The notes under the pieces were generated by a model. It did no database searches, was not told the origin of the DNA, and saw only the letters and a program-made list of their open reading frames with translations. The position numbers and the translations under genes are program-made. From positions 62,001 through 126,000 of the forward strand of contig CAIOSI010000037.1 in assembly GCA_903860975.1 (NCBI GenBank): a DNA stretch of 64,000 bases. The letters are read 5' to 3'. The DNA comes from an uncultured Alphaproteobacteria bacterium. GTDB taxonomy: Bacteria > Pseudomonadota > Alphaproteobacteria > Caulobacterales > Caulobacteraceae. Shown piece by piece: positions 43,774-56,850 of this stretch; positions within the stretch are counted from its first letter, which is position 1, and every line of letters starts with the position of its first letter.

Positions 43774-44591
43774 GGAGCCCCGCCTATGTTCGCGCATTGG
43801 CTGCGGCACCGGAGCTCCTGCGGCCCAATTGGTCCCGCAGGCTTGCTCATCTCGCTGCGCTGGGGCTGACGGCGGCTGTGCTGACCGCCATGGTCGTGGA
43901 CCTGCAGATTGCGCCAGGCGCGATTTTCTCCGGGGTCGACAAGCTGGGCCGGTTCGCGCGCGTCGCCTTCCCGCCCACGGACGGCGGCCAGCTGGTGCGC
44001 ATACTTCGTGCGCTCGCCGAGACCTTCGCCATGGCGTTCGCCGGCACTGTGATCGCCGCGATCGCAGCGGCGCCGCTCGGCCTGATCGGCGCGAAGACCG
44101 TGGTCAGCCAACCGGTCGTGCATTTCGCCTTTCGCCGCGCCCTCGACTGGTTCCGCGGCGTCCCGTCCCTGGTCTGGGCGCTGATCCTCGTCTCGGCCTT
44201 CGGGCTCGGCCCGTTCGGTGGCGTGATCGCCCTGGCGCTGGCCGATATTCCGAGGCTCGCGAAATTGTTCTCCGAGGCGATCGAGAACGGTGACGCGCGG
44301 CCACTGGAGGGGGTCCGCGCGGCCGGGCTTTCGCCGCTGATGGCCTTGCGCTATGGTCTCGCGCCACAGGTCGCGCCAGTGATCGCCAGCCAGTGCCTGT
44401 TCTTCCTGGAGAGCAATTTCCGCAACGCCGCGGTTCTGGGCATCGTCGGCGCCGGCGGCATCGGCTTTGAGCTTCAGGAGCGGATCCGCGTCTTCGCCTT
44501 CGACGAGGCGGCCTTCATCATCATCCTCTACATGGTCTGCGTCGCGGTCCTCGACACCGTCTCGCAACGGCTCAGGGCGAAACTGGCCTGA
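43770..44591 (+). CDS. phnE2: Phosphonate ABC transporter permease, second subunit
   Basis: A 273-residue PhnE paralogue with about six helices, including AALGLTAAVLTAMVVDL and TFAMAFAGTVIAAIAAAPLG. The PhnE-type blocks are FRGVPSLVWALILVSAFGLG and AAGLSPLMALRYGLAPQVAP (coupling loop) and the conserved NAAVLGIVGAGGIGFELQ. With phnE it probably forms a heterodimeric channel. Its last 20 bases overlap the convergent PfkB kinase gene. Confidence 0.92.
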   Translation: MRSPAYVRALAAAPELLRPNWSRRLAHLAALGLTAAVLTAMVVDLQIAPGAIFSGVDKLGRFARVAFPPTDGGQLVRILRALAETFAMAFAGTVIAAIAAAPLGLIGAKTVVSQPVVHFAFRRALDWFRGVPSLVWALILVSAFGLGPFGGVIALALADIPRLAKLFSEAIENGDARPLEGVRAAGLSPLMALRYGLAPQVAPVIASQCLFFLESNFRNAAVLGIVGAGGIGFELQERIRVFAFDEAAFIIILYMVCVAVLDTVSQRLRAKLA

Positions 44592-45435
44592 AGGCGGGGA
44601 AGTGACCGCCGGTTGGCGCCGACCCTTCGAGACCGACGGCAAGAGCTCCCCATTCGCACGCATGCGCCAGGGCCGCTTCGATCCCCGCTCCGGCCACTAG
44701 CGCCTCGAGCAAACCCGCGGCAAACACGTCGCCCGCGCCGGTGGCGTCCACGACCCTGGCTGGCTGCGGCACGACGCGGACAGATCGGGTGGGACCGTAG
44801 GCCGTGACCTCGCCCGGCCCGCAAGTCAGCACCAGCCATTGTAGCCTCGCGCCCACCTGCGCGAGGCCGGCCGCGAAGGGGGCGGCCAGGTCGGAGGCGT
44901 TACAGTCGTCGGCGGAGGCCACCAGCACGTCACAAGGGCCCTTGAATCTCCCCGCCGGCCAGTGGGCGACGACCGGCCCGCGGCAGGCCTGCGCCCACAG
45001 CTCCGCACCAGGATAAGGCCCCCTGACATAGAGGCCATCTGTGGCGACGATCGCGTCCGGGACCGACAGTTGGGGCAGCCCGGCGAAGTCGGCGTCGAGG
45101 TGTACAATCGAACGCTCACCGGCCGGATCGATAAGGACCAGGGTCTTCGGACTGGCGCCGACGCGGCGGTGGACAAGCGAGGTGTCAAGGCCCTCCGCCT
45201 GAGCCGTGGCCAGGGCGGTGTCACCGTCCGCGTCCGCCGCGACAAAGGCCGCCAGCCTGACCCTGTGGCCGGCCCGGACCAGGGCGACGCCCGCATTGGC
45301 CGCCCCGCCGCCGAGCCGTCCACTGAGCGCGCCCTCAAGAGTGCGCCCTTGCAGACGGGCGCCTGGCGATATCGGCCCGTTCAGCCGGATCGGCCGGTCC
45401 AGCGCCACGGCGCCGATCACCAGGAATTCCGCCAC
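44572..45435 (-). CDS. PfkB-family sugar kinase in the phosphonate locus
   Basis: A 287-residue ribokinase-type kinase. The N-terminal PfkB block is SGRLGGGAANAGVALVRAGH and the C-terminal one VVDATGAGDVFAAGLLEAL, with the anion hole and catalytic base in GAGD (Asp236). All hallmarks are intact. It is inserted on the opposite strand between the permeases and phnC. Because C-P lyase releases ribose phosphates, a sugar-phosphate or nucleoside substrate is a reasonable guess, but sequence alone cannot decide. GTG 45435 is the start, with GGAGG five bases upstream. Confidence 0.88.
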   Translation of the reverse strand: MAEFLVIGAVALDRPIRLNGPISPGARLQGRTLEGALSGRLGGGAANAGVALVRAGHRVRLAAFVAADADGDTALATAQAEGLDTSLVHRRVGASPKTLVLIDPAGERSIVHLDADFAGLPQLSVPDAIVATDGLYVRGPYPGAELWAQACRGPVVAHWPAGRFKGPCDVLVASADDCNASDLAAPFAAGLAQVGARLQWLVLTCGPGEVTAYGPTRSVRVVPQPARVVDATGAGDVFAAGLLEALVAGAGIEAALAHACEWGALAVGLEGSAPTGGHFPAFRPVSP

Positions 45436-45588
45436 ACCATCCTCCGCGTGGCGAGCCTTAGTCCGGCTCAATGACGCCGGTACGACAGCCACAAATCAAC
45501 CGCTTGTACGAGGCGTTCTCCTCTAACCGTCGCGGATGGGTCATGTGGAAGTGCTATCGACGAATTATGGAAAGCCCTCGGAGATCCG
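45436..45588. promoter_or_regulatory. Divergent intergenic region between the PfkB kinase and phnC
   Basis: 152 bases between two genes pointing outward, so it should carry both promoters. The segment 45560-45575 (CGACGAATTATGGAAAG) is AT-richer and could hold the phnC -10 region, but no convincing -35/-10 pair or repeat was found. Confidence 0.35.
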
Positions 45589-46368
45589 ATGCTTGAACTG
45601 CACGGCGTCACGAAACGGTTCGGCGATACGCTGGCCGTGGACAAGGTGTCTTTCGCCTGCGAACGCGGCGAATTCATCGGCGTGATCGGCCGTTCCGGCG
45701 CCGGCAAGTCCACTCTGCTGAGGCTCATCAATCGGCTCACCGACCCCAGCGAGGGCCGGATCACCTGGGATGGCGAGGATGTGAGCCTGCTGAGGGGCAA
45801 GACCCTGCGCCGCTGGCGCCGCCGCTGCGCCATGATCTTCCAGCAGTTCAACCTGTGTCCCCGCCTTGACGTGATCACCAACGTGCTGGTCGGCGTCGTC
45901 GCCGAGCGTCCTCTGGCGACCTCTCTGATCAAATACTTCCCCGCCGAGGACCGCGCGCGCGCCATCCTGGAGCTCGACGCCTTGGACATGGCCGGTGCCG
46001 CCCTCCAGCGCGCCGGTACCCTTTCTGGAGGCCAACAGCAGAGGGTGGCCATAGCCCGCGCCATGCTGCAGGAACCTGGCCTCGTGCTCGCAGACGAGCC
46101 TGTGGCGTCCCTGGATCCGGTCAACGCTGAGGTGGTGATGGAGGCACTCCAGAAGATTTGCCGGGAACGGAACCTGCCGGTGATCGTCAACCTGCACAGT
46201 CTGGAGATCGCGCGGCGCTATTGCACCCGCGTCGTCGCCATGGCCAAGGGCGCCATCGTGTTTGACGGACCGACCAGTGCGCTCACGCCGGCGGTGCTGG
46301 ACAGGGTCTACGCCGGCGGACGGACGGCGCGCACTGCCGAACCTCAGCTGATCGTCGAGGCGGCCTGA
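45589..46368 (+). CDS. phnC: Phosphonate ABC transporter ATP-binding protein
   Basis: A 259-residue ABC ATPase that powers PhnD/PhnE import. Walker A is [14 protein letters not shown], the Q-loop [20 protein letters not shown] (typical PhnC), signature [14 protein letters not shown], Walker [13 protein letters not shown] and the switch His in [13 protein letters not shown]. It begins at ATG 45589, 45 bases or so right of the nearest regulatory AT-rich patch. The last base of its stop is the A of the next gene's ATG (TGATG), so translation is coupled. Confidence 0.95.
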
Positions 46369-47057
46369 TGGGTCTCAGGCTTGCCGACCGGGCGTTGGAA
46401 CCGGGTTACCGCTACTTCGAGCGCTACGTCCATGGCGCCGACGCGCCGTTTGCTGATGCGGCTGAGCCGGCGATCCACCAGGACGCCCAGGTGCACGACA
46501 GCATCCTGGGGCCATGGACTCGCGTCGGCGCACGGACTAGTTTTTCCGAGGTGTCGATGGGTGCCTACAGCTACATCGTCAACGACTCTTCGGCGACCTA
46601 TTCGGAGATCGGAAAGTTCTGTTCGATCGCCCGCGACGCGCGGATCAATCCCGGCAACCATCCGACCTGGAAGGCCGCGCTGCACCACTTCACCTACCGG
46701 TCACGCTCCTACGACCTGGGCCCCGAAGACGATATGGACTTCTTCGAGTGGCGCCGGGCGCACCGTGTGGTGCTGGGACACGACGTCTGGATCGGCCACG
46801 GTGCCACGGTGCTGCCGGGCGTTACCATCGGCACGGGCGCGGTTGTCGGCGCGGGCGCGGTGGTGTCAAAGGACGTGCCGCCCTTCACCATCGTCGGTGG
46901 CGTTCCGGCCAAACCCATCCGCGAACGCTTCCCCCAGGAGGTGCGGGATGGTCTGCTGGCCCTTTCCTGGTGGGACTGGACCCATGACCGTCTTGCCGGC
47001 GCCCTCGAAGACTTCCGCCATCTCGACGCCGACGCCTTCGTCGAAAAGCACGCCTGA
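46368..47057 (+). CDS. Phosphonate-locus hexapeptide-repeat acyltransferase
   Basis: A 229-residue left-handed beta-helix transferase of the kind regularly found in phn clusters (chloramphenicol/DapD-like acetyltransferases of phosphonate metabolism). Repeats run from [20 protein letters not shown] to [20 protein letters not shown] and [20 protein letters not shown], followed by [10 protein letters not shown]. The catalytic His is in [15 protein letters not shown]. It may acetylate aminoalkylphosphonates, as PhnO does, although PhnO has an unrelated fold; the substrate is inferred only. It lies between phnC and phnN, overlapping the first. Confidence 0.88.
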
Positions 47058-47064
47058 GGTCGGC

Positions 47065-47598
47065 ATGCTGGTGCTCGTGGTTGGCCCATCCGGGGTCGGC
47101 AAGGACACGCTTCTGGACGGTGCCAGGATCGCGCTCGCCGACGATCGCGGCGTGCTTTTCGCACAGCGCCAGATCACCCGCCCGGCGGCGGCCGGCGGCG
47201 AGGCCCATATCCCGATCGGCGAGTCCGAGTTCGCGGCTCGCGAGGCCGCCGGTGCCTTTGCCCTGTCCTGGCGTGCTCACGGGCTTGCTTATGGCGTAGG
47301 GGTCGAGATCGATAGCCAATTGGCGGCCGGCCTTCGTGTGGTGGTGAACGTCTCGCGCCAGGTCCTGAACATCGCACGGCACCGCTATGGAGCCATTCGG
47401 GTCGTGTCGGTCACGGCGGATCCGCGGGTGCTGGCGAAGCGCCTCCGTTCCCGGGCGCGCGAGACCGAAGCCGAAATCGCAGCCCGCCTGGCGCGCGCCG
47501 CCGCGGTCGAGGTCGCCGGCGACGATGTGGTCATCGTGCGCAACGAGGGTGAGCCGCAGGAGGGCGTGGCCCAGCTGGTGGCCGCTATCAGGCGTTAG
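47065..47598 (+). CDS. phnN: Ribose 1,5-bisphosphate phosphokinase
   Basis: A 177-residue guanylate-kinase-like enzyme that phosphorylates ribose 1,5-bisphosphate to PRPP, the last step of the C-P lyase pathway. The P-loop is GPSGVGKDTLLDGA, followed by RQITRPAAAGGEAHI and SWRAHGLAYGV, both typical of PhnN. ATG 47065 follows the acyltransferase by seven bases with TGAGGT upstream. Its 3' end overlaps the convergent DUF1045 gene by 11 bases. Confidence 0.93.
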   Translation: MLVLVVGPSGVGKDTLLDGARIALADDRGVLFAQRQITRPAAAGGEAHIPIGESEFAAREAAGAFALSWRAHGLAYGVGVEIDSQLAAGLRVVVNVSRQVLNIARHRYGAIRVVSVTADPRVLAKRLRSRARETEAEIAARLARAAAVEVAGDDVVIVRNEGEPQEGVAQLVAAIRR

Positions 47599-48295
47599 CC
47601 CGGGCCGGGACCTGGAAGGCAAATCGCTCAAGGATTTCAAATGGCGCAGCGCGGTCGGCCTGTTTGAAGACGGCGATTCCGTCGAACCGGTGCGGACCGG
47701 TCTCAGCCGCGAAATAGGCGCGCAGGGCCGTAAGCACGCGCCCACGGATCGCCTCGTCACGGATCTGGCCGGTCAGGGTCATGTGGAAGCGGAAGTCTTC
47801 CAGGATGTAGGGATATCCCCGGGCCAGAAGTCTTGCATCCTGTTCGGAGGTCAGCGGTTCACGGCGGCGGCGCGCCAGGTCGTCTTCAGACAGAGGTGCG
47901 CGGAACGACTCAAAGGATTCGACACAGGCGGCATGCAAGGCCAGCATCTGCGCCTCCCCGTCCTGGAGCCGGAACGCCAGGAAGCGACCCAGCTCGGCCG
48001 GGGCGATGGCGGCCTCAAAGGGGGCCGCCTTGGCTGCGAAGGACCGCGCCGCGTCCAGAAGCTCGCTTTCAAGGCTGTCTGGCGTAAGCTCGAACGGCGC
48101 CTTCAAGGTAGCATGGAAGCCGTAGCCACGTGGATCAGCCGTTAGCGGATCCAGGTCCAGGTCGTCCAAATCCGGGAGTCGCGGACGTTCGACCACCTCT
48201 CCGGTGTAGGCGTCGCGGCTCAGCCAGGCCGAGGCCTTGCGCCACAGTGGCGTATCGGCGGGCGGCGCATAGTAGATCGCGAACCGCGCTGTCAT
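47588..48295 (-). CDS. DUF1045 phosphonate-metabolism protein, 2H phosphoesterase-like
   Basis: A 235-residue protein of the DUF1045 family linked to phn operons. It has two H-x-T motifs, HAT at 61-63 (GYGFHATLKAPF) and HMT at 171-173 (DFRFHMTLTGQI), the mark of 2H phosphoesterases, which open cyclic phosphates. No PhnP is encoded in the locus, so this protein may hydrolyse ribose 1,2-cyclic phosphate 5-phosphate in its place; this is inference. ATG 48295 overlaps the phnM stop by four bases, making it the last gene of phnGHIJKLM. Confidence 0.88.
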   Translation of the reverse strand: MTARFAIYYAPPADTPLWRKASAWLSRDAYTGEVVERPRLPDLDDLDLDPLTADPRGYGFHATLKAPFELTPDSLESELLDAARSFAAKAAPFEAAIAPAELGRFLAFRLQDGEAQMLALHAACVESFESFRAPLSEDDLARRRREPLTSEQDARLLARGYPYILEDFRFHMTLTGQIRDEAIRGRVLTALRAYFAAETGPHRFDGIAVFKQADRAAPFEILERFAFQVPARANA

Positions 48296-49431
48296 GCGAC
48301 GCGTCGGCCTTGCCGCCACACCTCCGTCGGAATGGGCCAGCCGGCGGAGCGCCGTGAGACGCGCACCAGGTCGGCGCGTTGGCCCGGCGCGATTTCCCCA
48401 CGGTCGTCGAGGCCCAGGCAGCGGGCCGGACCGGCGGCGACGGTGGCCAGAGCTTTCTGCACAGGCCAGCCGAAATCGTCGATCAGCATGAAGGCTGAAC
48501 GCAGCATGGAGAGCGGCACATAGTCCGAGGCCAGGATGTCGAGCACGTCATGTTTGGCACACTCACGGGCCGACAGATTGCCCGAATGGGACGACCCGCG
48601 CACGAAATTCGGGCCGCCCATGCAGATGCCCATGCCGTATCCGCGCGCCGCTTGGGCGGCAGCCAGGGTCACCGGGAACTCCGCGATCACACAGCCGTCG
48701 TCGTGGGCCGCGTCCACCTGCTCGGCCGTAGCATCGTCATGGGCGCAGAGTGGCACGCCATATTCACGGGCGAAGGCCACGACACTGCGTCGATTGGTGA
48801 CCGCCACCGAGGGGTCGCGGCCGCTATGGCGCACGGCCAGCAGTTCGTCGATCTCATCGTCGCTGTGACCGGATGCCATCATCCGCTCCTTCAATTTCTC
48901 GATGTTGGTCGTCTGCCGTTGACCCGGCGTGTGATCCATCACCGAAAGCAGCTTCAGGCGCGGATTGTCGACATGCGGCTCGAGCAGGCTAAGGAGCACA
49001 GGATTGGTCACCTCGCAGCGCAGGTGCAGCAGGTGTTCGGCCCGAAGAGCGCCGTCGGCCTGGGCCGCGTCGATGCCTGCGATCATCGGTCCGAGCGAGG
49101 CCTGGCGGTCGAGACCTTCCTTGCGGCCGTGCAGGCTGAGCGAGTCCAGCACCGTGGTGATCCCGGCCGAGGCGCACTGCCCGTCGTGTGCCAGCGCCGC
49201 GCCATAGGCGTCCCATAACGCGCCGGGACGGGGCTGATAATGCTTTTCTAGATTGTCGGTATGGATATCGATCAGGCCGGGGATTAGCCAGTCACCGGAC
49301 CAGTCCAGAGCCTGCGCCGACGGAGATAGTCGAGCCTCCACGGCCAGAATGGCGCCGTCCCGGATCACGGCCTCGCCACCTAAGAGGCCCTGGGGCGTGA
49401 CGATGTGCTGGGAATAGATGCGCTGTTCCAT
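48292..49431 (-). CDS. phnM: Ribosyl alkylphosphonate triphosphate diphosphatase
   Basis: A 379-residue amidohydrolase-superfamily enzyme that removes pyrophosphate from alpha-D-ribose 1-alkylphosphonate 5-triphosphate to give the 5-phosphate used by PhnJ. The metal motif is IDIHTDNLEKHYQPRPG (His57 and His64), and LSVMDHTPGQRQ and LCAHDDATAEQV are further PhnM blocks. It begins five bases after the phnL stop and overlaps the DUF1045 gene. A second PhnM is encoded 5.5 kb away (54964-56097); the two are of nearly equal length. Confidence 0.95.
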   Translation of the reverse strand: MEQRIYSQHIVTPQGLLGGEAVIRDGAILAVEARLSPSAQALDWSGDWLIPGLIDIHTDNLEKHYQPRPGALWDAYGAALAHDGQCASAGITTVLDSLSLHGRKEGLDRQASLGPMIAGIDAAQADGALRAEHLLHLRCEVTNPVLLSLLEPHVDNPRLKLLSVMDHTPGQRQTTNIEKLKERMMASGHSDDEIDELLAVRHSGRDPSVAVTNRRSVVAFAREYGVPLCAHDDATAEQVDAAHDDGCVIAEFPVTLAAAQAARGYGMGICMGGPNFVRGSSHSGNLSARECAKHDVLDILASDYVPLSMLRSAFMLIDDFGWPVQKALATVAAGPARCLGLDDRGEIAPGQRADLVRVSRRSAGWPIPTEVWRQGRRVA

Positions 49432-49436
49432 GGAGC

Positions 49437-50141
49437 TTACGCCGCGACCTTGAATTCGGAGACGTTAAAGAGGCTCGTGGCCACGGCGTCGCGGACGTCG
49501 TGGTCGTGGAAGATACCGATCATCGCTGCGCCCTCGTCCAGGGCCTGCTTGATGAGCTGGACCACGATGGCGCGGTTCTCGGCGTCGAGCGAGGCGGTAG
49601 GCTCATCCAGCAGCAGCACCGGATAGTTGCGGATGAAGCTGCGGGCGATGTTCACCCGCTGCTGCTCGCCGCCGGAGAACGTGGCGGGCGGCAGATCCCA
49701 GTGCGCCTTGGGCAGACGAAGGGCGCCGAGCAGCTTTTCCGCGCGTTCCTGCGCTTCAATTGGATCAACACCATTCTCAAGCAGCGGCTCCATCACAAGC
49801 TGCAGGGTTGAGATCCGCGGGATCACCCGCAAAAACTGGCTTACGTAGCCCAGGGTGCGGCGGCGGACGTCGAGTACCTGATGCGGCGGCGCGCCCGTGA
49901 TATCGACATAGGCCCCGTCGTGCAGGACGCGCACGGCACCGTGGGTCGGCAGGTAGTTGCCATAGATCGAACGCATCAAGGTGGACTTTCCGACCCCGGA
50001 TTCTCCGGCCAGCACAACGCATTCACCCGGCGAGACTTCCAGGCCGAGGCCATCGAAAACCGGTATCGTCGCGCCCTCGGCGTTATGCAGGATGAAGGTC
50101 TTGGCGAGGCCTTCGACCACGATCAGGGGTTGATTGCTCAT
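49437..50141 (-). CDS. phnL: C-P lyase complex ABC-type ATPase PhnL
   Basis: A 234-residue ABC ATPase that binds the C-P lyase core complex with PhnK; it is not a transporter subunit. Walker A GESGVGKSTLMRSIYGNY, Q-loop YVSQFLRVIPRISTLQLVME, signature FSGGEQQRVNIARSF and Walker B VLLLDEPTASLD are intact. PhnL-specific context is EGLAKTFILHNAEGATIPVF at the N-terminus. It follows phnK by eight bases and precedes phnM by five. Confidence 0.95.
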   Translation of the reverse strand: MSNQPLIVVEGLAKTFILHNAEGATIPVFDGLGLEVSPGECVVLAGESGVGKSTLMRSIYGNYLPTHGAVRVLHDGAYVDITGAPPHQVLDVRRRTLGYVSQFLRVIPRISTLQLVMEPLLENGVDPIEAQERAEKLLGALRLPKAHWDLPPATFSGGEQQRVNIARSFIRNYPVLLLDEPTASLDAENRAIVVQLIKQALDEGAAMIGIFHDHDVRDAVATSLFNVSEFKVAA

Positions 50142-50149
50142 AACGGAAC

Positions 50150-50956
50150 CTAAATCTGCAGGACGGAGGAGACGAGAAGCTGGCTGTAGGGATGCTGGGG
50201 ATCGTCCAGCACCTGGTCAGTGAGGCCGGTCTCCACCACGAAGCCGTCCTTCATGACGATCAGGCGATCGGCCATCAGTCGGGCCACGGCCATGTCGTGG
50301 GTGACGATGATCACGGCCAGGCCCAGGTCACGGACGAGTTCACGGAGCAGGTCGAGGAGGCGCGCCTGCACCGAGACATCGAGACCGCCGGTGGGCTCGT
50401 CCATGAACACCAGGCGTGGACCATGGATCAGGTTGCGCGCGACCTGGATGCGCTGCTGCATGCCACCAGAGAAGTTCCGCGGTTTGTCGTCGATGCGCCG
50501 GGTGTCAAGTTCCACCCGCTCCAGCCACTCGATTGTGGCCGATCGCATCTTGCCGTAGTGGCGGTTGCCGAGGTTCATCAGCGGCTCGGCGACGTTGGCA
50601 CCGCCGGAGACGCGCATGCGCAGGCCGTCGCGCGGGTTCTGGTGCACGAAACCCCACTCCTCACGCTGCATGCGCCGGCGGTCCGGCTCGTTCAGGCCAT
50701 AAATGTCGGTCAAGCCGAAACGCGAGGTGTCGAACTCCACCGCGCCGGAGGATGGCGGAAGCCGGCCGGATATGCAGTTGAGCAGTGTGGTCTTGCCCGA
50801 ACCGCTCTCCCCAACGACGCCCAGCACTTCGCCTCGACGCAATTCGAAGGATACATCGCGGCAGCCGACGACGTGGCCGTAGGACTTGGTGAGCTTGTCC
50901 ACCCTCAGCAGGGGTGCGGCCTGGGCGATCGCAATGGCTTTTGGCATTGCGTTCAT
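50150..50956 (-). CDS. phnK: C-P lyase complex ABC-type ATPase PhnK
   Basis: A 268-residue ABC ATPase that docks on PhnJ in the C-P lyase core. Walker A GESGSGKTTLLNCISGRL, Q-loop WGFVHQNPRDGLRMRVSGGA, signature FSGGMQQRIQVARN and Walker B VFMDEPTGGLDVSVQ are complete. The central part EPDRRRMQREEWGFVHQNPR is PhnK-specific. ATG 50956 overlaps the phnJ stop (TGATG); a GTG one codon earlier is also possible. Confidence 0.95.
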   Translation of the reverse strand: MNAMPKAIAIAQAAPLLRVDKLTKSYGHVVGCRDVSFELRRGEVLGVVGESGSGKTTLLNCISGRLPPSSGAVEFDTSRFGLTDIYGLNEPDRRRMQREEWGFVHQNPRDGLRMRVSGGANVAEPLMNLGNRHYGKMRSATIEWLERVELDTRRIDDKPRNFSGGMQQRIQVARNLIHGPRLVFMDEPTGGLDVSVQARLLDLLRELVRDLGLAVIIVTHDMAVARLMADRLIVMKDGFVVETGLTDQVLDDPQHPYSQLLVSSVLQI

Positions 50957-51864
50957 CACGCCGGCTCCGTTTCAAGAGCGGCGAGCTCGTGGTCGGCCAT
51001 AGGACCGATATGACCCGCGGCACGGCGATCCGCGCAGAAGTGGCTGTCGGAACAGACGAACATCCGAGTGCCCGCGTCGTCGAGCACCACCTCGTCGAGG
51101 TAGCTTTCCTCGGCACCGCACAGCGCACAGTCCTCTTCCCAGGTCTGAGTCTCGAAGGGATAGTCCTCGAAATCCAGGCTGCGTACGCTGGTGTGCGGCG
51201 GCACTGCATAGATACGTTTCTCGCGGCCGGCTCCGAACAACAGGATGGCTTCGTTGTCGCCCATCTTCGGATTGTCGAACTTTGGGATCGGCGACGGGCT
51301 CATCAGGTAGCGCTCGTCGACCATCGTCGGATAGCCCACGGTCGAGGCAATGCGGCCATAAGTGGCAACGCTCTCGTATAGTGAGACGTACTGCAGACCA
51401 TATTCCTCGTAGGCGTGCATGGCCCGGGTCTCGGTCTCGCGTGCCTCCAGGCCTCGCAGGGGTTCGGGTTGCGGCACCTGGAAGACCAGCACTTGACCGG
51501 CCTTCAAGGGCTGTTCGGGGATGCGGTGGCGGGTCTGGATGATCGTTGCCTTGCCGGTGTCCTCGGTGACCGCCACGTCGGCCACCTGGGCGAAGAAGCG
51601 GCGGATCGATACGGCGTTGGTTGTGTCGTCGGCGCCCTGATCGATGCACTTGTAGACGTCGTCGGGACCTATGATGGCGGCGGTGAGCTGGATGCCACCC
51701 GTGCCCCAGCCATAGGGCACCGGCATCTCGCGCGAACCGAAGGGCACCTGGTAGCCGGGGATGGCAAGGGCCTTCAGGATCGAGCGGCGGATCATCCGTT
51801 TCGTCTGCTCATCCAGGTAGGCGTAGTTGTAGTAGCGCTCAGGCTGGTTGGGACGGGCCGTCAT
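50956..51864 (-). CDS. phnJ: Carbon-phosphorus lyase, radical SAM catalytic subunit
   Basis: A 302-residue enzyme that cleaves the C-P bond of ribosyl alkylphosphonate 5-phosphate by radical SAM chemistry, releasing the alkane. The cysteines C246, C249, C271 and C277 have the same spacing (3, 22, 6) as E. coli C241, C244, C266 and C272, so both the iron-sulfur ligands and the radical-forming cysteine are kept. The N-terminus NYAYLDEQTKRMIRRSILKA and PYGWGTGGIQLT are family marks. ATG 51864 overlaps phnI by four bases and the stop overlaps phnK. Confidence 0.97.
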   Translation of the reverse strand: MTARPNQPERYYNYAYLDEQTKRMIRRSILKALAIPGYQVPFGSREMPVPYGWGTGGIQLTAAIIGPDDVYKCIDQGADDTTNAVSIRRFFAQVADVAVTEDTGKATIIQTRHRIPEQPLKAGQVLVFQVPQPEPLRGLEARETETRAMHAYEEYGLQYVSLYESVATYGRIASTVGYPTMVDERYLMSPSPIPKFDNPKMGDNEAILLFGAGREKRIYAVPPHTSVRSLDFEDYPFETQTWEEDCALCGAEESYLDEVVLDDAGTRMFVCSDSHFCADRRAAGHIGPMADHELAALETEPA

Positions 51865-52967
51865 TCCGCAGCTTCCTTCATTGCGGCTACCCGTTCGGCG
51901 TGCTCGCGCCGTAATCGGCGGATCAGCTGGAGGTCGGCCTGGAAGTCCACGTAGTGCGGCAGCTTCAGATGCTGCACGAACCCGGAGGCCTCGACATTGT
52001 CGGAATGGTAGAGGACGAACTCCTCGTCCTGCACCGGGGCGCTCGCCTCGCCCGCGGACGCGTCGCGCAGGGCTCGGTCGACGATGGCCATGGACATCGC
52101 CTTGCGCTCGCAGTGACCGAAGGTGAGGCCATACCCGCGGGTGAATTGAGGCGCCTTGTCGGTGCCCCCCGCGCCCGTGGAGATCATCTGGCACTCGGTG
52201 AGCGTAACCTCGCCGATCTCGATGGGGAAGCCCAACTCGTCGGGAACGAACTCAACAGCCACCTCGCCCAGGCGAATTTCGGCGCAGAGCGGATGGGTGT
52301 TGCCCCAGCCGCGCTGCGAGGAATAGGCTAGGCTGAGCAGGAACCCCTCATCTCCGCGGGCCAACGCCTGCAACCGCTGATCGCGTCCGGCCGGAAAAGC
52401 CATGGGGTCGCGGGTCAGGTCGAAGGGCTCGGGCGCATCGGGCGTCCGGGTGTCAGCCTCCAGCAGGTCCTCGTGGGAGAAGACGGACGCGATGGTCGCC
52501 ATCGGATAGGCCTGAGCCTCTTCGGCCTCGAGCGCGCCCTCGATCGGGGTCTCGCCATTGGCGGCCAGGGTGAAGTCCAGTAGGCGGTGGGTGTAGTCGA
52601 ACGTCGGGCCAAGCACCTGGCCGCCGGGGATGTCCTTGAAGGCGGCCGAGACGCGCCGGCGAACCGCCATCTGTCCTGTCTCAACCGGCAGTGACGCGCC
52701 GAACCGGGCCAGCGTGGTGCGATAAGCCCTCGTCAGGAAGATCGCTTCCGGCAGGTCGCCGCGCGCCTGCTTGACAGCCAGGGCCGCGAGGTCGCGGTCG
52801 TAGCAGGACCCTTCACTCATCACCCGGTCGATGGCCAGCGAGAGCTGCTCGCGGATCTGGGCGACTTCGACTTCCGGAACCGCAGTATCGCCGCGGCGGT
52901 CCTCAGCGAGCCAGCGGTGGGCGTTAGTGATCGCCTTCTCGCCGCCTTTTACTGCCACATAGGCCAT
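51861..52967 (-). CDS. phnI: C-P lyase core subunit PhnI
   Basis: A 368-residue core subunit that, with PhnG, PhnH and PhnL, attaches ribose triphosphate to alkylphosphonates by displacing adenine from ATP. Family blocks are MAYVAVKGGEKAITNAHRWL at the start, EGSCYDRDLAALAVKQARGD, SLAYSSQRGWGNTHPLCAEI, and FCLTFGH-like YGLTFGHCERKAMSMAIVDR. The C-terminus DFQADLQLIRRLR is characteristic. It overlaps phnJ by four bases and follows phnH by one base. Confidence 0.95.
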   Translation of the reverse strand: MAYVAVKGGEKAITNAHRWLAEDRRGDTAVPEVEVAQIREQLSLAIDRVMSEGSCYDRDLAALAVKQARGDLPEAIFLTRAYRTTLARFGASLPVETGQMAVRRRVSAAFKDIPGGQVLGPTFDYTHRLLDFTLAANGETPIEGALEAEEAQAYPMATIASVFSHEDLLEADTRTPDAPEPFDLTRDPMAFPAGRDQRLQALARGDEGFLLSLAYSSQRGWGNTHPLCAEIRLGEVAVEFVPDELGFPIEIGEVTLTECQMISTGAGGTDKAPQFTRGYGLTFGHCERKAMSMAIVDRALRDASAGEASAPVQDEEFVLYHSDNVEASGFVQHLKLPHYVDFQADLQLIRRLRREHAERVAAMKEAAE

Positions 52968-52968
52968 G

Positions 52969-53595
52969 TCAGTTTCCTTGAATGGTGGCGCGCGTGGAGC
53001 GCGGTAATGCGGTCAAACGGTCACCGGCGACGAAAATCAGATCGACGCCGAACTGGAATTTCGCCTGATTGGCGCGGACCTGGTCCCAGAAGCCTTCCGG
53101 CAGGCCGGCCAGGGCGAGCAAGGCCTCACCTTTGATCCCGGGCCCGGTGAGCGTGACCCGAGGGCCACCCTCCAGGCCCGGCAGCTGGAAGACCAGGGTA
53201 GTCGAACGGTCCGGATACTTGGCGTCGCCTTGGTTGAAAGCGGCGAGCGCCGGCGCGCCCATGACGTCGGTGATCAGGGCGAATGCGGCCTTGACCGGAT
53301 CGTCCGTCAGGGGGCAGCCACAGTGGAAGCGCATCCAGCTCTCGGCGTTCCCGCCGCGCAGGGCCGGGTCGAGCCAAGTCGGTGTCTCGAAGTCGAACAA
53401 GGTGAGCGCAACGGCGCCGGCGGCGCGGTCCAGACCATCCGGCGCTTCGGGGGCGAATGCCAGGTCCTGGATCGTGCCCGGCCGGGCGACGGCGTCCATG
53501 ACCTTTCGGAAAACCGCCTGGGACTCTCGGGTCGGGTCGTTGAAGGCCGGCGCGATCTCGGCCAAGTCCAGGACGGTGGGGGCGGAAGCGGACAT
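52969..53595 (-). CDS. phnH: C-P lyase core subunit PhnH
   Basis: A 208-residue core subunit with a PLP-transferase-like fold but no PLP. Matching blocks are APAFNDPTRESQAVFRKVMD, VALTLFDFETPTWLDP, WMRFHCGCPLT and FQLPGLEGGPRVTLTGPGIK. The ATG at 53595 overlaps the phnG stop, and phnI begins one base after its stop, so the genes are coupled. Length is close to that of E. coli PhnH. Confidence 0.94.
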   Translation of the reverse strand: MSASAPTVLDLAEIAPAFNDPTRESQAVFRKVMDAVARPGTIQDLAFAPEAPDGLDRAAGAVALTLFDFETPTWLDPALRGGNAESWMRFHCGCPLTDDPVKAAFALITDVMGAPALAAFNQGDAKYPDRSTTLVFQLPGLEGGPRVTLTGPGIKGEALLALAGLPEGFWDQVRANQAKFQFGVDLIFVAGDRLTALPRSTRATIQGN

Positions 53596-54065
53596 CAGCC
53601 GGGGCTCCGGGTACGAACCATGGTGAAGAAGTCGACCTTGGTGGCGGCAGCCTTGCGCGCAGCCGTGTTACGCCGCTCGTCTTGCCCGCGCGCCAGTCGG
53701 GCAATCACGGCGCCTTCCACGGCGGGGCGGAGATCGGATGACTGCATCATGGCGTCAACGGCCGCCGCGATCTCGGCGTGACGTCGGTCACGACCGGCGA
53801 CGTAGCCGATCCCGGTCTCACCACTCTCCAGGCGGACAGCCGCGCGGGTGACGGTCATCTCGCCAAGGTTAAAGGCGTCGCCACCGCCGCCCATGCGTCC
53901 GCGCACCAGGACCATGCCAATCTCCGGCGCGCGCAGCGCTCTGTAGTCGGGTCGCTCCGCCAAGCCTTCCCAAGCGGCGATCACATCTTTGGACGGTGCC
54001 TTGGCCAGGATCGAAAGCCAGCGTCTACGTTCAGGAGCCCCCTCGACAACCGCCTCGACCGCCAT
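53595..54065 (-). CDS. phnG: C-P lyase core subunit PhnG
   Basis: A 156-residue core subunit. The N-terminal RRRWLSILAKAPSKDVIAAW, the strand VRGRMGGGGDAFNLGEMTVT (G-G-G-x-x-F-N-L-G-E is the PhnG hallmark) and IGYVAGRDRRHAEIAAAVDA identify it. ATG 54065 has GGAGAT six bases upstream, preferred over a start at 54089. It is the first gene of the leftward operon phnGHIJKLM-DUF1045 and faces phnF across an AT-rich region. Confidence 0.94.
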   Translation of the reverse strand: MAVEAVVEGAPERRRWLSILAKAPSKDVIAAWEGLAERPDYRALRAPEIGMVLVRGRMGGGGDAFNLGEMTVTRAAVRLESGETGIGYVAGRDRRHAEIAAAVDAMMQSSDLRPAVEGAVIARLARGQDERRNTAARKAAATKVDFFTMVRTRSPG

Positions 54066-54230
54066 CTTTAATCTCCGACAACTAAGCAAATTGTTGTATT
54101 CGTGATGTTCTCAGGCTAGATTACACAAAGTTTAGTCGCAACAATAAGATGATGAAGTTTCTTTGACATTAGTAAAACTTGTCTAGTTGGGTGTCGCAAG
54201 ACTGATAAAAAAATCTGGTAGGTTCTCGGC
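54066..54230. promoter_or_regulatory. AT-rich divergent control region of phnG and phnF
   Basis: The region is far richer in A/T than anything nearby. An inverted repeat ACAAC (54078-54082) / GTTGT (54093-54097) lies just upstream of phnG, and GTCT/AGAC and GACA/TGTC pairs lie near 54167-54210. On the minus strand 54169-54152 reads ATGTCAA-AGAA-ACTTCAT, matching the Pho box (two CTGTCAT, spacing 4) at 9 of 14 positions. It probably contains promoters for both operons, a PhnF operator and perhaps PhoB control. Confidence 0.6.
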
Positions 54231-54938
54231 ATGTCGTTATGGCGAGAAATCTCCCAGACCCTCGAGCGCCGGATTCTGGCCCGCGAGCTGACCCCTGGGG
54301 ACAAATTGCCGACCGAGGACCAGCTGTCCCGTCATTTCATGGTCAACCGGCACACGGTGCGCAGAGCGTTGTCGGATTTGCAGGAAAAGGGCATCGTCGA
54401 GTCGACCCAGGGGCGAGGCAGCTTCGTACGTCGCCCGTCGGCGCCGATGCAGTTGCAGAGACGCCCACGCTTCACGGACCATGTTCGCGAGCGCGGCCGC
54501 ATCCCACGAACCGAGACCCTCGTGCTGATGACACGCCCGGCGGATGCGCGGATAGCGCGCGAGCTGGGCCTGAAACCCAACCAGCCGGTAATCTATCTGG
54601 AGCGCAGGCGTTTTATCGACGACGAGCCGACCGGTCTCAGCCAACATCATTTCAGCCACGAGCGGTTCCCGACGTTCATCGAGATGTACCGGTCACGTGG
54701 CACGATTACCCAGACCCTGATCGATTCCGGTGTGCCGGACTACACGCGTCGTCGCACCGCGATCTCGGCGCGCCTGCCCAGCGTGCAGGAAGCCGAGCAG
54801 CTGCGCATTCCGCGCCACGTGCCGTTGCTGGTGCATCGCTACCTCAACATCGATGGTCTTGGCAGGCCCCTCGAATACGGCATCTCCCGCTCCACCACCG
54901 AGGTGGAAATCGACTTTCCAGAACCCGACCGCAACTAG
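54231..54938 (+). CDS. phnF: GntR-family phosphonate regulator PhnF
   Basis: A 235-residue repressor of the GntR/HutC type. The N-terminal winged helix runs from MSLWREISQTLERRILAREL through LPTEDQLSRHFMVNRHTVRR to GRGSFVRRP. The C-terminal UTRA ligand-binding domain (about 80-230) has FTDHVRERGRIPRTETLV, GLKPNQPVIYLERRRFIDDE and VPLLVHRYLNIDGLGRPLEY. It is divergent from phnG and most likely binds the AT-rich region between them; its ligand may be a phosphonate or a pathway intermediate. The second phnM follows 25 bases later. Confidence 0.93.
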   Translation: MSLWREISQTLERRILARELTPGDKLPTEDQLSRHFMVNRHTVRRALSDLQEKGIVESTQGRGSFVRRPSAPMQLQRRPRFTDHVRERGRIPRTETLVLMTRPADARIARELGLKPNQPVIYLERRRFIDDEPTGLSQHHFSHERFPTFIEMYRSRGTITQTLIDSGVPDYTRRRTAISARLPSVQEAEQLRIPRHVPLLVHRYLNIDGLGRPLEYGISRSTTEVEIDFPEPDRN

Positions 54939-54963: not shown

Positions 54964-56097
54964 GTGGAACTTGTAATGAGGAACGCCATGGTCGTCGCCG
55001 GCGACGACGCTTTCCTCGGCTCAGTGAGGGTTGTCGATGGAAGGATCGCCGATATCGGCCGCGGCCCATGCGGGGTCGGCGAGGACCTCGAGGGCGACGT
55101 CCTGATGCCAGGGGTGATCGACCTCCATACCGACAACCTGGAGAAACATTTTTTCCCGCGGCCCAACATTGACTGGAGCCCGGTCTCGGCGGCCGTGACC
55201 CATGACGGCTGCTGCCTGTCTGTGGGCGTGACCACAGTGTTCGACAGCCTCAGTATCGGCTCGTTCAACGCCGCGGCCTCGCGAAACCACGACAACCTGA
55301 TCCGCCTGACCGATGGGCTGCTCGCGGCTCGCAACGCCGGCATGCTGAAGGGCGACCACAGGCTGCACTGGCGATGCGAAACGACGGCCGATGACCTGCT
55401 CGACCGCCTCGAGACCCTGGCCAGTCACCCGCTGACATCGCTCTTCTCGCTGATGGACCACACCCCGGGCCAGAGGCAATACCGCAATCTCGAAAAGCAT
55501 ATGGCCAACTGGCGCGCCAACGGCATGTCGGTCGAGGCGACGGAAACCCGGATGGCCGAGATCCGCGAACGCCAGTCACGCAACGCATCCAGGCAGCGTA
55601 AGCTGGTGGCGGCCGTCGCCCATGAACGCGGCGCGCCTCTGGCTAGCCACGACGACGAGAGCACCGCACATATCGACGAGGCCCACGAACTTGGTGCCAC
55701 CGTGGCGGAGTTTCCCGTCACCCTGGAGGCCGCCGAGCGTGCCAGAGCGCGCGGCATGATCGTGGTCATGGGCGGGCCGAACCTGATCCGCGGCGGCTCC
55801 TATTCCGGCAATGTTCCGGCTGCGGACCTGGCCCATGCTGACCTGCTCGACGCCTTTGCGTCCGACTATGTGCCGCGCAGTCTGATCGAATGCGCTTTCG
55901 CTATGACCATCGGCCAATTCGGATGGAGTCTTCCGAAGGCCGTCGCGCTTGTCACCGCCACCCCCGCTAAGGCTGCGCGGCTCGAGGATCGCGGCGCGAT
56001 CGAGCCTGGACGACGGGCGGACCTCTTGCGGGTGCGTCTGGCGGCCGGGCTGCCCGTGATACGCGGCGTGTGGGTCGAGGGCGAGCGCGCCGCCTGA
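54964..56097 (+). CDS. phnM2: Second PhnM-type diphosphatase
   Basis: A 377-residue paralogue of the phnM product. The metal motif VIDLHTDNLEKHFFPRPNID (His55, His62), FSLMDHTPGQRQYRNLEKHM, LASHDDESTAHIDEAHELGA and MGGPNLIRGGSYSGN are all kept, so it should be active. It is only moderately similar to the first copy. The GTG start at 54964 has CAGGAG six bases upstream. It follows phnF on the same strand and precedes an EEP-family enzyme; the duplicate may act on a different side chain or in a branch without the C-P lyase core. Confidence 0.9.
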   Translation: MELVMRNAMVVAGDDAFLGSVRVVDGRIADIGRGPCGVGEDLEGDVLMPGVIDLHTDNLEKHFFPRPNIDWSPVSAAVTHDGCCLSVGVTTVFDSLSIGSFNAAASRNHDNLIRLTDGLLAARNAGMLKGDHRLHWRCETTADDLLDRLETLASHPLTSLFSLMDHTPGQRQYRNLEKHMANWRANGMSVEATETRMAEIRERQSRNASRQRKLVAAVAHERGAPLASHDDESTAHIDEAHELGATVAEFPVTLEAAERARARGMIVVMGGPNLIRGGSYSGNVPAADLAHADLLDAFASDYVPRSLIECAFAMTIGQFGWSLPKAVALVTATPAKAARLEDRGAIEPGRRADLLRVRLAAGLPVIRGVWVEGERAA

Positions 56098-56106
56098 ACG
56101 GCCGCC

Positions 56107-56850
56107 ATGCGGATCGCGACCCTGAACACCTGGAAGAACGAAGGCGACTATGCTCGGCGCCTCGATCTCATGACTCGCGGCCTGGCGGAGCTTTCGCCGG
56201 ACATCATTTGCCTGCAGGAATGTTTTGCAGGCGCCGGCGCGGACACAGCCGCGGTCCTGGCGCGCCGGCTTGGACTGGTCAGCCTGACCCGTCCCTCCCG
56301 AGCCAAGCTCCGGCTACATGGCGGCGCGATGGTCCCGAGCACTTCGGGGCTGGCCATTCTTTGCCGCCTTCCGGCCCTAGCAGAGCGCGCGCGACCATTG
56401 GTCAGCCATCCTGCCGATGGCGAGCGCATCGCCCAGCGCCTGGACCTGGCACCGATCGACGGACATGCCATGCGTATCCTGAACCTGCACCTGACTCACC
56501 TTCGCGGCGAACAATCCAGCGCGCTGCGGGCGGGCCAGCTCATCCAGGCCCTAGACTGGGCCTATGAGGGTCTGGTCGGCGGACTTGTGGTGGCCGGGGA
56601 TCTCAATGCGGCGGCTTCCGATCCGGCGCTGGTCCCCTTGAATGCCCAGGTCGGGTTCGACATGACGACCTTCATCGGCGCCCGGTCCAATGGACCGCAA
56701 GGCGAAGGCCTGGCCATCGATCACCTGCTCCTGCAGCAGCCCGGTGGCTGGAGCGTGGCCTCCCGGTTTCGCGCCTTGGACCAGGGCGATGACGAGGGCT
56801 GGCGGCCGAGCGATCACGCCGCAGTGGTTATCGACCTGATCGCGACCTAG
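56107..56850 (+). CDS. Endonuclease/exonuclease/phosphatase-family enzyme
   Basis: A 247-residue Mg-dependent phosphoesterase of the EEP superfamily. Catalytic blocks in order: IATLNTWKNEGDYARRLDLM, DIICLQECFAG (Glu ligand), RILNLHLTHLRGEQ (His), VVAGDLNAAASDP (Asp-Asn) and WRPSDHAAVVIDL (Asp-His). No signal peptide. It begins nine bases after phnM2 and may hydrolyse a phosphodiester or cyclic phosphate made during phosphonate breakdown, or release phosphonates from phosphodiester conjugates. Substrate is not known. Confidence 0.88.
   Translation: MRIATLNTWKNEGDYARRLDLMTRGLAELSPDIICLQECFAGAGADTAAVLARRLGLVSLTRPSRAKLRLHGGAMVPSTSGLAILCRLPALAERARPLVSHPADGERIAQRLDLAPIDGHAMRILNLHLTHLRGEQSSALRAGQLIQALDWAYEGLVGGLVVAGDLNAAASDPALVPLNAQVGFDMTTFIGARSNGPQGEGLAIDHLLLQQPGGWSVASRFRALDQGDDEGWRPSDHAAVVIDLIAT

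Follow-up and report, generated by a model that had tools for sequence, protein, structure and literature searches.

How does the carbon–phosphorus (C–P) lyase pathway pass its ring-opening step in a bacterium that encodes no recognisable PhnP? This question is raised by a stretch of 64,000 nucleotides from an uncultured member of the Caulobacteraceae (assembly GCA_903860975.1, contig CAIOSI010000037.1, positions 62,001 to 126,000; hereafter the window), in which a phnG-H-I-J-K-L-M operon ending in a DUF1045 gene occupies positions 47588-54065 of the minus strand, its genes arranged head to tail according to the list of open reading frames (ORFs) and family profile scans. An earlier reading of the letters alone, the original prediction, had described this operon as lacking phnP and had proposed the DUF1045 protein as a non-homologous replacement; the gene order is confirmed, and no PhnP scores above the model cut-off in the genome. 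Our analysis indicates that the DUF1045 protein of the window is probably a 2H phosphoesterase taking the place of PhnP. The argument draws on gene order, the absence of PhnP, the mutual exclusion of the two families and residue conservation, all observed here, and on a fold taken from a structural model. PhnP has a fold unrelated to that of 2H enzymes and its chemistry is metal-dependent; 2H enzymes work without metal.

The DUF1045 gene (47588-48295, minus strand), whose product is also called RcsF and is here the proposed phosphodiesterase of 5-phosphoribosyl 1,2-cyclic phosphate (PRcP), encodes 235 residues. As had been claimed, it ends the operon and overlaps phnM (48292-49431, minus strand; TIGR02318 417.9 bits, above the cut-off), its ATG at 48295 lying inside the phnM stop with a 4-base ATGA overlap. 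The protein belongs to PF06299 (DUF1045; 155 bits against a gathering score of 24.3) and also matches 2_5_RNA_ligase2 (32 bits) and LigT_PEase (25 bits), both above their cut-offs; because its full-length score of 228.3 bits on the narrower TIGR03223 (Phn_opern_protn) falls below the cut-off of 248.95, we file it under PF06299. Hits at E ≤ 0.001 to the Pfam 2'-5' RNA ligase family were obtained for 26 of 30 DUF1045 members, and to LigT for 14 of the 30; PHROGs returned no match for DUF1045. Two conserved H-x-[ST] motifs of the 2H phosphoesterase type are present, as HATL at 61 and HMTL at 171, and H61-x-T63 and H171-x-T173 thus stand exactly where they had been placed when counted from the ATG at 48295 (69 and 179 from a longer GTG start at 48319). 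Every one of the 115 aligned copies has H61 and H171, and 112 of them keep both H-x-[TS] motifs; the other three are extra copies, each in a genome that holds another DUF1045 besides. R4, Y8, Y58, K65, R132 and G160 are likewise invariant in alignments of 30 and of 65 DUF1045 sequences, and in the 115-copy set R132 is kept in all, R4 in 114 and K65 in 106. The extra copies (L124, L125 and L128, in genomes G475, G611 and G417) carry the altered motifs HGV and HMP and have neighbours of similar size, with no phn gene beside them.

A model of the window protein predicted by AlphaFold from a 65-sequence alignment (predicted local distance difference test 96.6, predicted template modelling score 0.91) adopts the bilobal 2H fold that had been suggested. 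The solved structures nearest to it belong to 2H proteins, namely Bacillus subtilis YjcG (2d4g, Z 15.3), the Arabidopsis cyclic phosphodiesterase (CPDase; 1jh6, Z 14.3 over 166 residues at 3.4 Å), E. coli LigT (Z 13.2) and human Usb1 (Z about 13). An arrangement in which H61 and H171 would face each other in one cleft is favoured by the fold match and by the conservation. A single-sequence search found no solved DUF1045 structure, and a profile search for solved relatives gave four matches only, with E values of 0.06 to 0.7, the best being the 2'-5' RNA ligase-like 2fyh.

We infer the substrate, the role of each histidine and the regiochemistry as follows. PhnJ would release PRcP, which DUF1045 would take up between its lobes. 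If LigT is a guide, H61 would then protonate the leaving oxygen while H171 would activate water; the ring would open to ribose 1,5-bisphosphate, and PhnN would turn this product into phosphoribosyl pyrophosphate (PRPP). Conserved residues such as R4, K65 and R132 may hold the 5-phosphate. The ribose 1,5-bisphosphokinase gene phnN (47065-47598, plus strand; TIGR02322 209.6 bits, above the cut-off) is present in the island, as the original prediction stated, but not as a member of the operon: it is convergent with DUF1045 on the opposite strand, tail to tail with an 11-base overlap, and therefore belongs to the island while lying outside the DUF1045 operon.

The source assembly comprises 53 contigs and is 99.95% complete. 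A search of the whole genome with the PhnP model TIGR03307 at E ≤ 10 returned six weak matches, none above the cut-off of 272.25 bits and the best a partial one of 29.3 bits; the same model exceeds its cut-off in E. coli, the only one of 14 named control genomes in which it does so, and also the only one with phnJ above cut-off, DUF1045 being found in none of the 14. The sole genomic match spanning the PhnP model is a metallo-beta-lactamase relative, hit in two pieces of 25 and 20 bits, whose gene follows three that were read by eye as tmk, holB and tatD; phn genes are absent from its surroundings. Given the low best score and the position of the spanning gene, we reject a PhnP hidden elsewhere in the genome.

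The distribution of the two families was followed in two sets, 385 genomes drawn evenly from the class and 398 drawn from the phylum, which together hold 138 distinct phnJ genomes; E thresholds for PhnP varied by search (10 in the source genome, 0.001 in the class phnJ genomes, and 1e-15, 1e-6 or 1e-40 elsewhere). In the class draw, phnJ is present in 65 genomes, full-length DUF1045 in 77 (80 over the cut-off minus three weak matches of one genus, G259, G030 and G337) and both in 63, and in the phylum draw phnJ exceeds its cut-off in 83; a sub-cut-off DUF1045 match (G115) and a sub-cut-off phnJ fragment (G414) were left out of these counts. PhnP is the textbook enzyme of the ring-opening step, but DUF1045, a family still named "domain of unknown function", is what 115 of these 138 genomes carry instead; 19 carry PhnP only, none carries both and 4 carry neither. 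Among the 25 phnJ genomes outside the class, 19 have PhnP, 4 have DUF1045 and 2 have neither (Fisher p 0.0012, kinship ignored), and one family (f193) includes one DUF1045 genome and one PhnP genome. PhnN is found at E ≤ 1e-20 in 128 of the 138 (55/65 of the class draw and 73/73 of the remainder; 126 over its own cut-off), including 107 of the 115 that have DUF1045.

DUF1045 also keeps company with the genes flanking its proposed step. It lies within 16 kb of phnJ in 88 of the 115 genomes and only elsewhere in 27, some of them perhaps through contig breaks. The loci fetched cover 66 of 90 copies near phnJ, 34 of 34 away from phnJ in phnJ genomes and 14 of 14 in genomes lacking phnJ. With 400 bp as the limit, 54 of these 114 copies neighbour phnM, 41 phnN and 78 at least one of the two, some of the 78 being far from phnJ; no phn gene was recognised in the fetched stretch for 25. 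The order DUF1045-phnM-phnN recurs, apart from phnJ, in seven genomes of a single family (f176). Among the best 80 of at least 592 named DUF1045 loci, 57 include phnJ, 17 have phnM or phnN without it and 6 have none of these; the nearest of the 80 is in a Phenylobacterium metagenome-assembled genome (MAG), at 67% identity, which by itself would make Caulobacterales the probable source of the window. One locus (L279), in a record titled Mycobacterium sp. KBS0706, has an alphaproteobacterial-looking phn cluster with DUF1045 and is, we would guess, mislabelled or contaminated.

Two related operons that hold both genes offer what may be a natural record of the replacement. In a gammaproteobacterial MAG among the best 80 named loci (L230), the order is phnJ-K-L-M-DUF1045-phnN-PhnP; in G748 (locus L303), a genome chosen for its kinship with this MAG, phnD, phnE and phnG-I precede the same order. 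Both genomes are outside the draws that gave the 138. With 119 and 142 bits, their PhnPs fall short of the TIGR03307 cut-off (E 8e-34 and 3e-41, so that only the 1e-40 threshold would miss the first). Compared with 11 ordinary PhnPs, the two proteins (L230:5519-6322 and L303:9202-10005) have lost H74, H76, D78, H79, H141 and D162 (numbering of genome G539), which we take to be six of the seven catalytic metal ligands, and have retained three cysteines, presumably the structural zinc site. Both genomes preserve an open frame of 267 codons whose start overlaps phnN. Between the two loci the ratio of nonsynonymous to synonymous substitution rates is 0.49 for PhnP, 0.38 for DUF1045, 0.41 for PhnN and 0.20 for phnM, figures from one pair without a confidence interval. 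Judged by sequence, the degenerate PhnP is a candidate pseudoenzyme; in both operons holding the two genes PhnP looks dead and DUF1045 intact, which matches what replacement predicts. We found no description of a degenerate PhnP beside DUF1045 in the literature searched. A third sub-cut-off PhnP match among 56 genomes (G774, locus L304) keeps its ligands and has no phn genes around it, and was not counted.

Taken together, the fold, the conserved catalytic motifs, the mutual exclusion in the 138 phnJ genomes, the adjacency to phnM or phnN and the degenerate PhnP of two genomes support DUF1045 as a non-homologous replacement of PhnP. This proposal has been published before; the present evidence strengthens it. 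The literature on DUF1045 includes a review by Hove-Jensen et al. (2014). Three papers carry the proposal of a PhnP analogue, the equation of RcsF with DUF1045 being taken from their texts and not from their sequences (PMC3840354, PMC8235418, PMC10574752). In the first of these, RcsF is stated to play the role of PhnP in all likelihood, and the cluster B3_TF_MPn_2, with rcsF and no phnP, gave an E. coli strain deleted for phnHIJKLMNOP growth on methylphosphonate and other phosphonates (PMC3840354). The second cites the Hove-Jensen et al. review for DUF1045 (PMC8235418), and the third, a review, reports a survey of 54 operons, with PhnP in 27 and rcsF without PhnP in 16, beside a citation of Podzelinska et al. 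2009 (PMC10574752). The rcsF-PhnP analogy is repeated in PMC5649143 and PMC6981132, and PMC10132767 names a DUF1045 protein as one of those whose levels rise when a marine Phaeobacter is under phosphorus stress.

The remaining genes of the island complete a phosphonate locus. Upstream of phnM in the operon lie phnL (49437-50141) and phnK (50150-50959), both ATP-binding cassette (ABC) proteins matched by PF00005 and named by operon position together with that domain, followed by phnJ, for C–P bond cleavage (50956-51861; PF06007 464 bits), phnI (51861-52967; PF05861 513 bits), phnH (52969-53595; PF05845 211 bits) and phnG (53595-54065; PF06754 177 bits, the scan having used the longer ORF 53595-54089), all on the minus strand; the phnGHIJKLM core is thus complete. 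On the plus strand adjoining DUF1045 are phnD, a second phnD-like gene, phnE1, phnE2, phnC (45589-46368, the ABC ATPase of phosphonate uptake), a phn-associated hexapeptide transferase gene (46368-47057; TIGR03308 292 bits, above the cut-off) and phnN; the names phnD, phnE1 and phnC were given by eye from the ORF list, that of phnC also by place. Between phnE2 and phnC, on the minus strand, stands a gene for a weakly ribokinase-like PfkB-type sugar kinase (44572-45492), and such a gene is kept in four of the compared loci (L133, L211, L214 and L215). Divergent from phnG, the plus strand carries the phnF regulator gene (54231-54938; TIGR02325 199 bits, above the cut-off), a second phnM, phnM2 (54976-56097; TIGR02318 417 bits, above the cut-off), and, 3' of phnM2, a gene for an endonuclease/exonuclease/phosphatase (EEP)-family phosphodiesterase/phosphatase (56107-56850; PF03372 57.8 bits).

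Several observations weigh against assigning the step to DUF1045. The class contributes 113 phnJ genomes (65 from the class draw, 48 from the phylum draw), and PhnP exceeds its cut-off in not one of them, so that the DUF1045/PhnP contrast is largely explained by ancestry, and the mutual exclusion of the two is strongly confounded by it. Ten phnJ genomes have no PhnN match and eight of them have DUF1045, where the proposed product would therefore need another fate. In the class draw, 14 of the 77 full-length DUF1045 genomes lack phnJ, and PhnN is present in none of those 14; the protein can therefore exist without the pathway. Aligned with the single E. coli LigT sequence, the DUF1045 profile gave no usable alignment (probability 2%). 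The EEP gene beside phnM2 counts, in the window lineage, as a second candidate hydrolase, the ring opening in the published E. coli complementation could have been the work of the host, and no biochemical assay of DUF1045 was found in the literature searched, which covered few subscription journals. The four phnJ genomes with neither DUF1045 nor PhnP (G720, G723, G161 and G259) point the same way. In G720 the PhnN match begins only at profile position 30, and in G723 phnN and phnC are adjacent with no phnP between them; no phnP remnant was recognisable by tblastn in either locus. PhnN is missing as well from G161 and G259, both of them small genomes. The former has phnGHIJKLM, with no PhnP over the cut-off and no DUF1045; in the latter a different contig gives no more than a weak DUF1045-like match of 50 bits, which is shared by two phnJ-less genomes of its genus, G030 and G337. 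Directly upstream of phnG in G161 lies a calcineurin-like phosphoesterase gene (L079:6661-7515), which could be a third ring opener.

Within the window lineage the main rival is the EEP gene, itself an uncharacterised phn-linked gene. Were its protein, co-directional with phnF and phnM2, to open PRcP in this lineage, DUF1045 would do something else. The protein adds another phosphodiesterase-type hydrolase to the island and carries NTW, LQE, GDLN and SDH, presumably the EEP catalytic motifs, and its gene follows the phnF-phnM pair in 8 of the 18 loci holding that pair (the other 10 have no EEP), these including same-genus and same-order relatives and one Rhodospirillales locus (L241). However, every fetched EEP locus also carries DUF1045, EEP was found in those 8 fetched loci only, many loci ending too near to show it, against DUF1045 in 115 of 138 phnJ genomes, and the gene sits with phnM2 and phnF, apart from the lyase core. 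Moreover, the cluster functional in E. coli is described with rcsF, and the excerpt mentions no EEP (PMC3840354). No PDB relative of the EEP protein was found by sequence at E ≤ 0.01, and we found no paper placing EEP with phnM and C–P lyase, although a phrase search may miss a name that contains slashes. We regard a ring-opening EEP protein as very unlikely. A housekeeping metallo-beta-lactamase beside tatD, as a distant PhnP relative doing the same work, is highly improbable: some TIGR03307 match (E ≤ 0.001) occurs in 65 of 65 phnJ genomes of the class draw, the tatD-adjacent copy having been examined in the source genome, but scores in the class reach at most 94 bits against a cut-off of 272, the source copy is the two-piece match with no phn gene near, and such matches also occur in 11 of the 14 controls, which mostly lack phnJ.

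Other readings keep DUF1045 as the ring opener and change its product or its calling. DUF1045 might yield ribose 2,5-bisphosphate or act on an earlier cyclic intermediate, as might be expected if it behaved like the 2H enzymes that, according to an excerpt of PMC5283653, leave a 2'-phosphate on 2',3'-cyclic phosphates, and the eight DUF1045 phnJ genomes without PhnN would then be accommodated; against this, the same excerpt has 2H enzymes leaving a 1''-phosphate on ribose 1'',2''-cyclic phosphate, whose ring is chemically the same as that of PRcP, and PhnN accompanies DUF1045 in all but those eight of its phnJ genomes. A different product thus seems quite unlikely. It is unlikely, if somewhat less so, that DUF1045 opens such rings generally or serves in repair, having been recruited by C–P lyase operons and outliving them. 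The 14 phnJ-less genomes favour it, four having a phnM-DUF1045 pair (L089, L093, L085 and L092, two of them with phnF) and ten no recognised phn gene in the fetched stretch; two of the stretches, L092 and L094, are short. The phnJ-less copies are scattered in a quick tree instead of forming one clade (39 of 112 inner branches drawn open), and all 19 PhnP genomes of the phylum draw have phnJ. PRcP can also arise from spontaneous PRPP decay. Yet the phnJ-less shares, 14/77 for DUF1045 and 0/19 for PhnP, do not differ significantly (Fisher p 0.065), and some stand-alone copies may be relics, since a 66-codon ORF beside DUF1045 in G168 resembles the phn hexapeptide transferase (40 bits). Nor was a partner common to stand-alone copies found: ten neighbouring proteins, taken from all but one of the ten loci, share no family, and three of these proteins lack a Pfam match. 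Retention of DUF1045 without C–P lyase is not described in the literature covered. A wider history seems rather unlikely: in it DUF1045 would be a free-standing PRcP opener that displaced PhnP inside phn operons, with a PhnP conserved but catalytically dead staying behind in the same operon in one gammaproteobacterial lineage or more, and that was kept after the loss of C–P lyase and PhnN, the 14 genomes concerned not having been searched for PhnP.

With DUF1045 as the probable replacement of PhnP, the window can be set beside three known systems. It shares with the DUF1045/RcsF clusters of other Alphaproteobacteria (PF06299, TIGR03223) the family, the place beside phnM or phnN and the lack of phnP, whereas its copy, at 228 bits, stays under the TIGR03223 cut-off of 249 and its island additionally holds phnM2-EEP and the PfkB kinase. 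With E. coli PhnP, a metallo-beta-lactamase phosphoribosyl cyclic phosphodiesterase, DUF1045 has the proposed reaction and the pathway step in common, yet the two occur together in no phnJ genome of the two draws. With the 2H cyclic phosphodiesterases (Arabidopsis CPDase, 1jh6 and 1fsi; LigT/ThpR; YjcG, 2d4g) it shares the predicted fold over nearly its whole length and the two H-x-T motifs, but at 9-16% identity and with some 50-65 more residues, and the conserved R4, Y8, Y58, K65, R132 and G160 set DUF1045 off from those enzymes.

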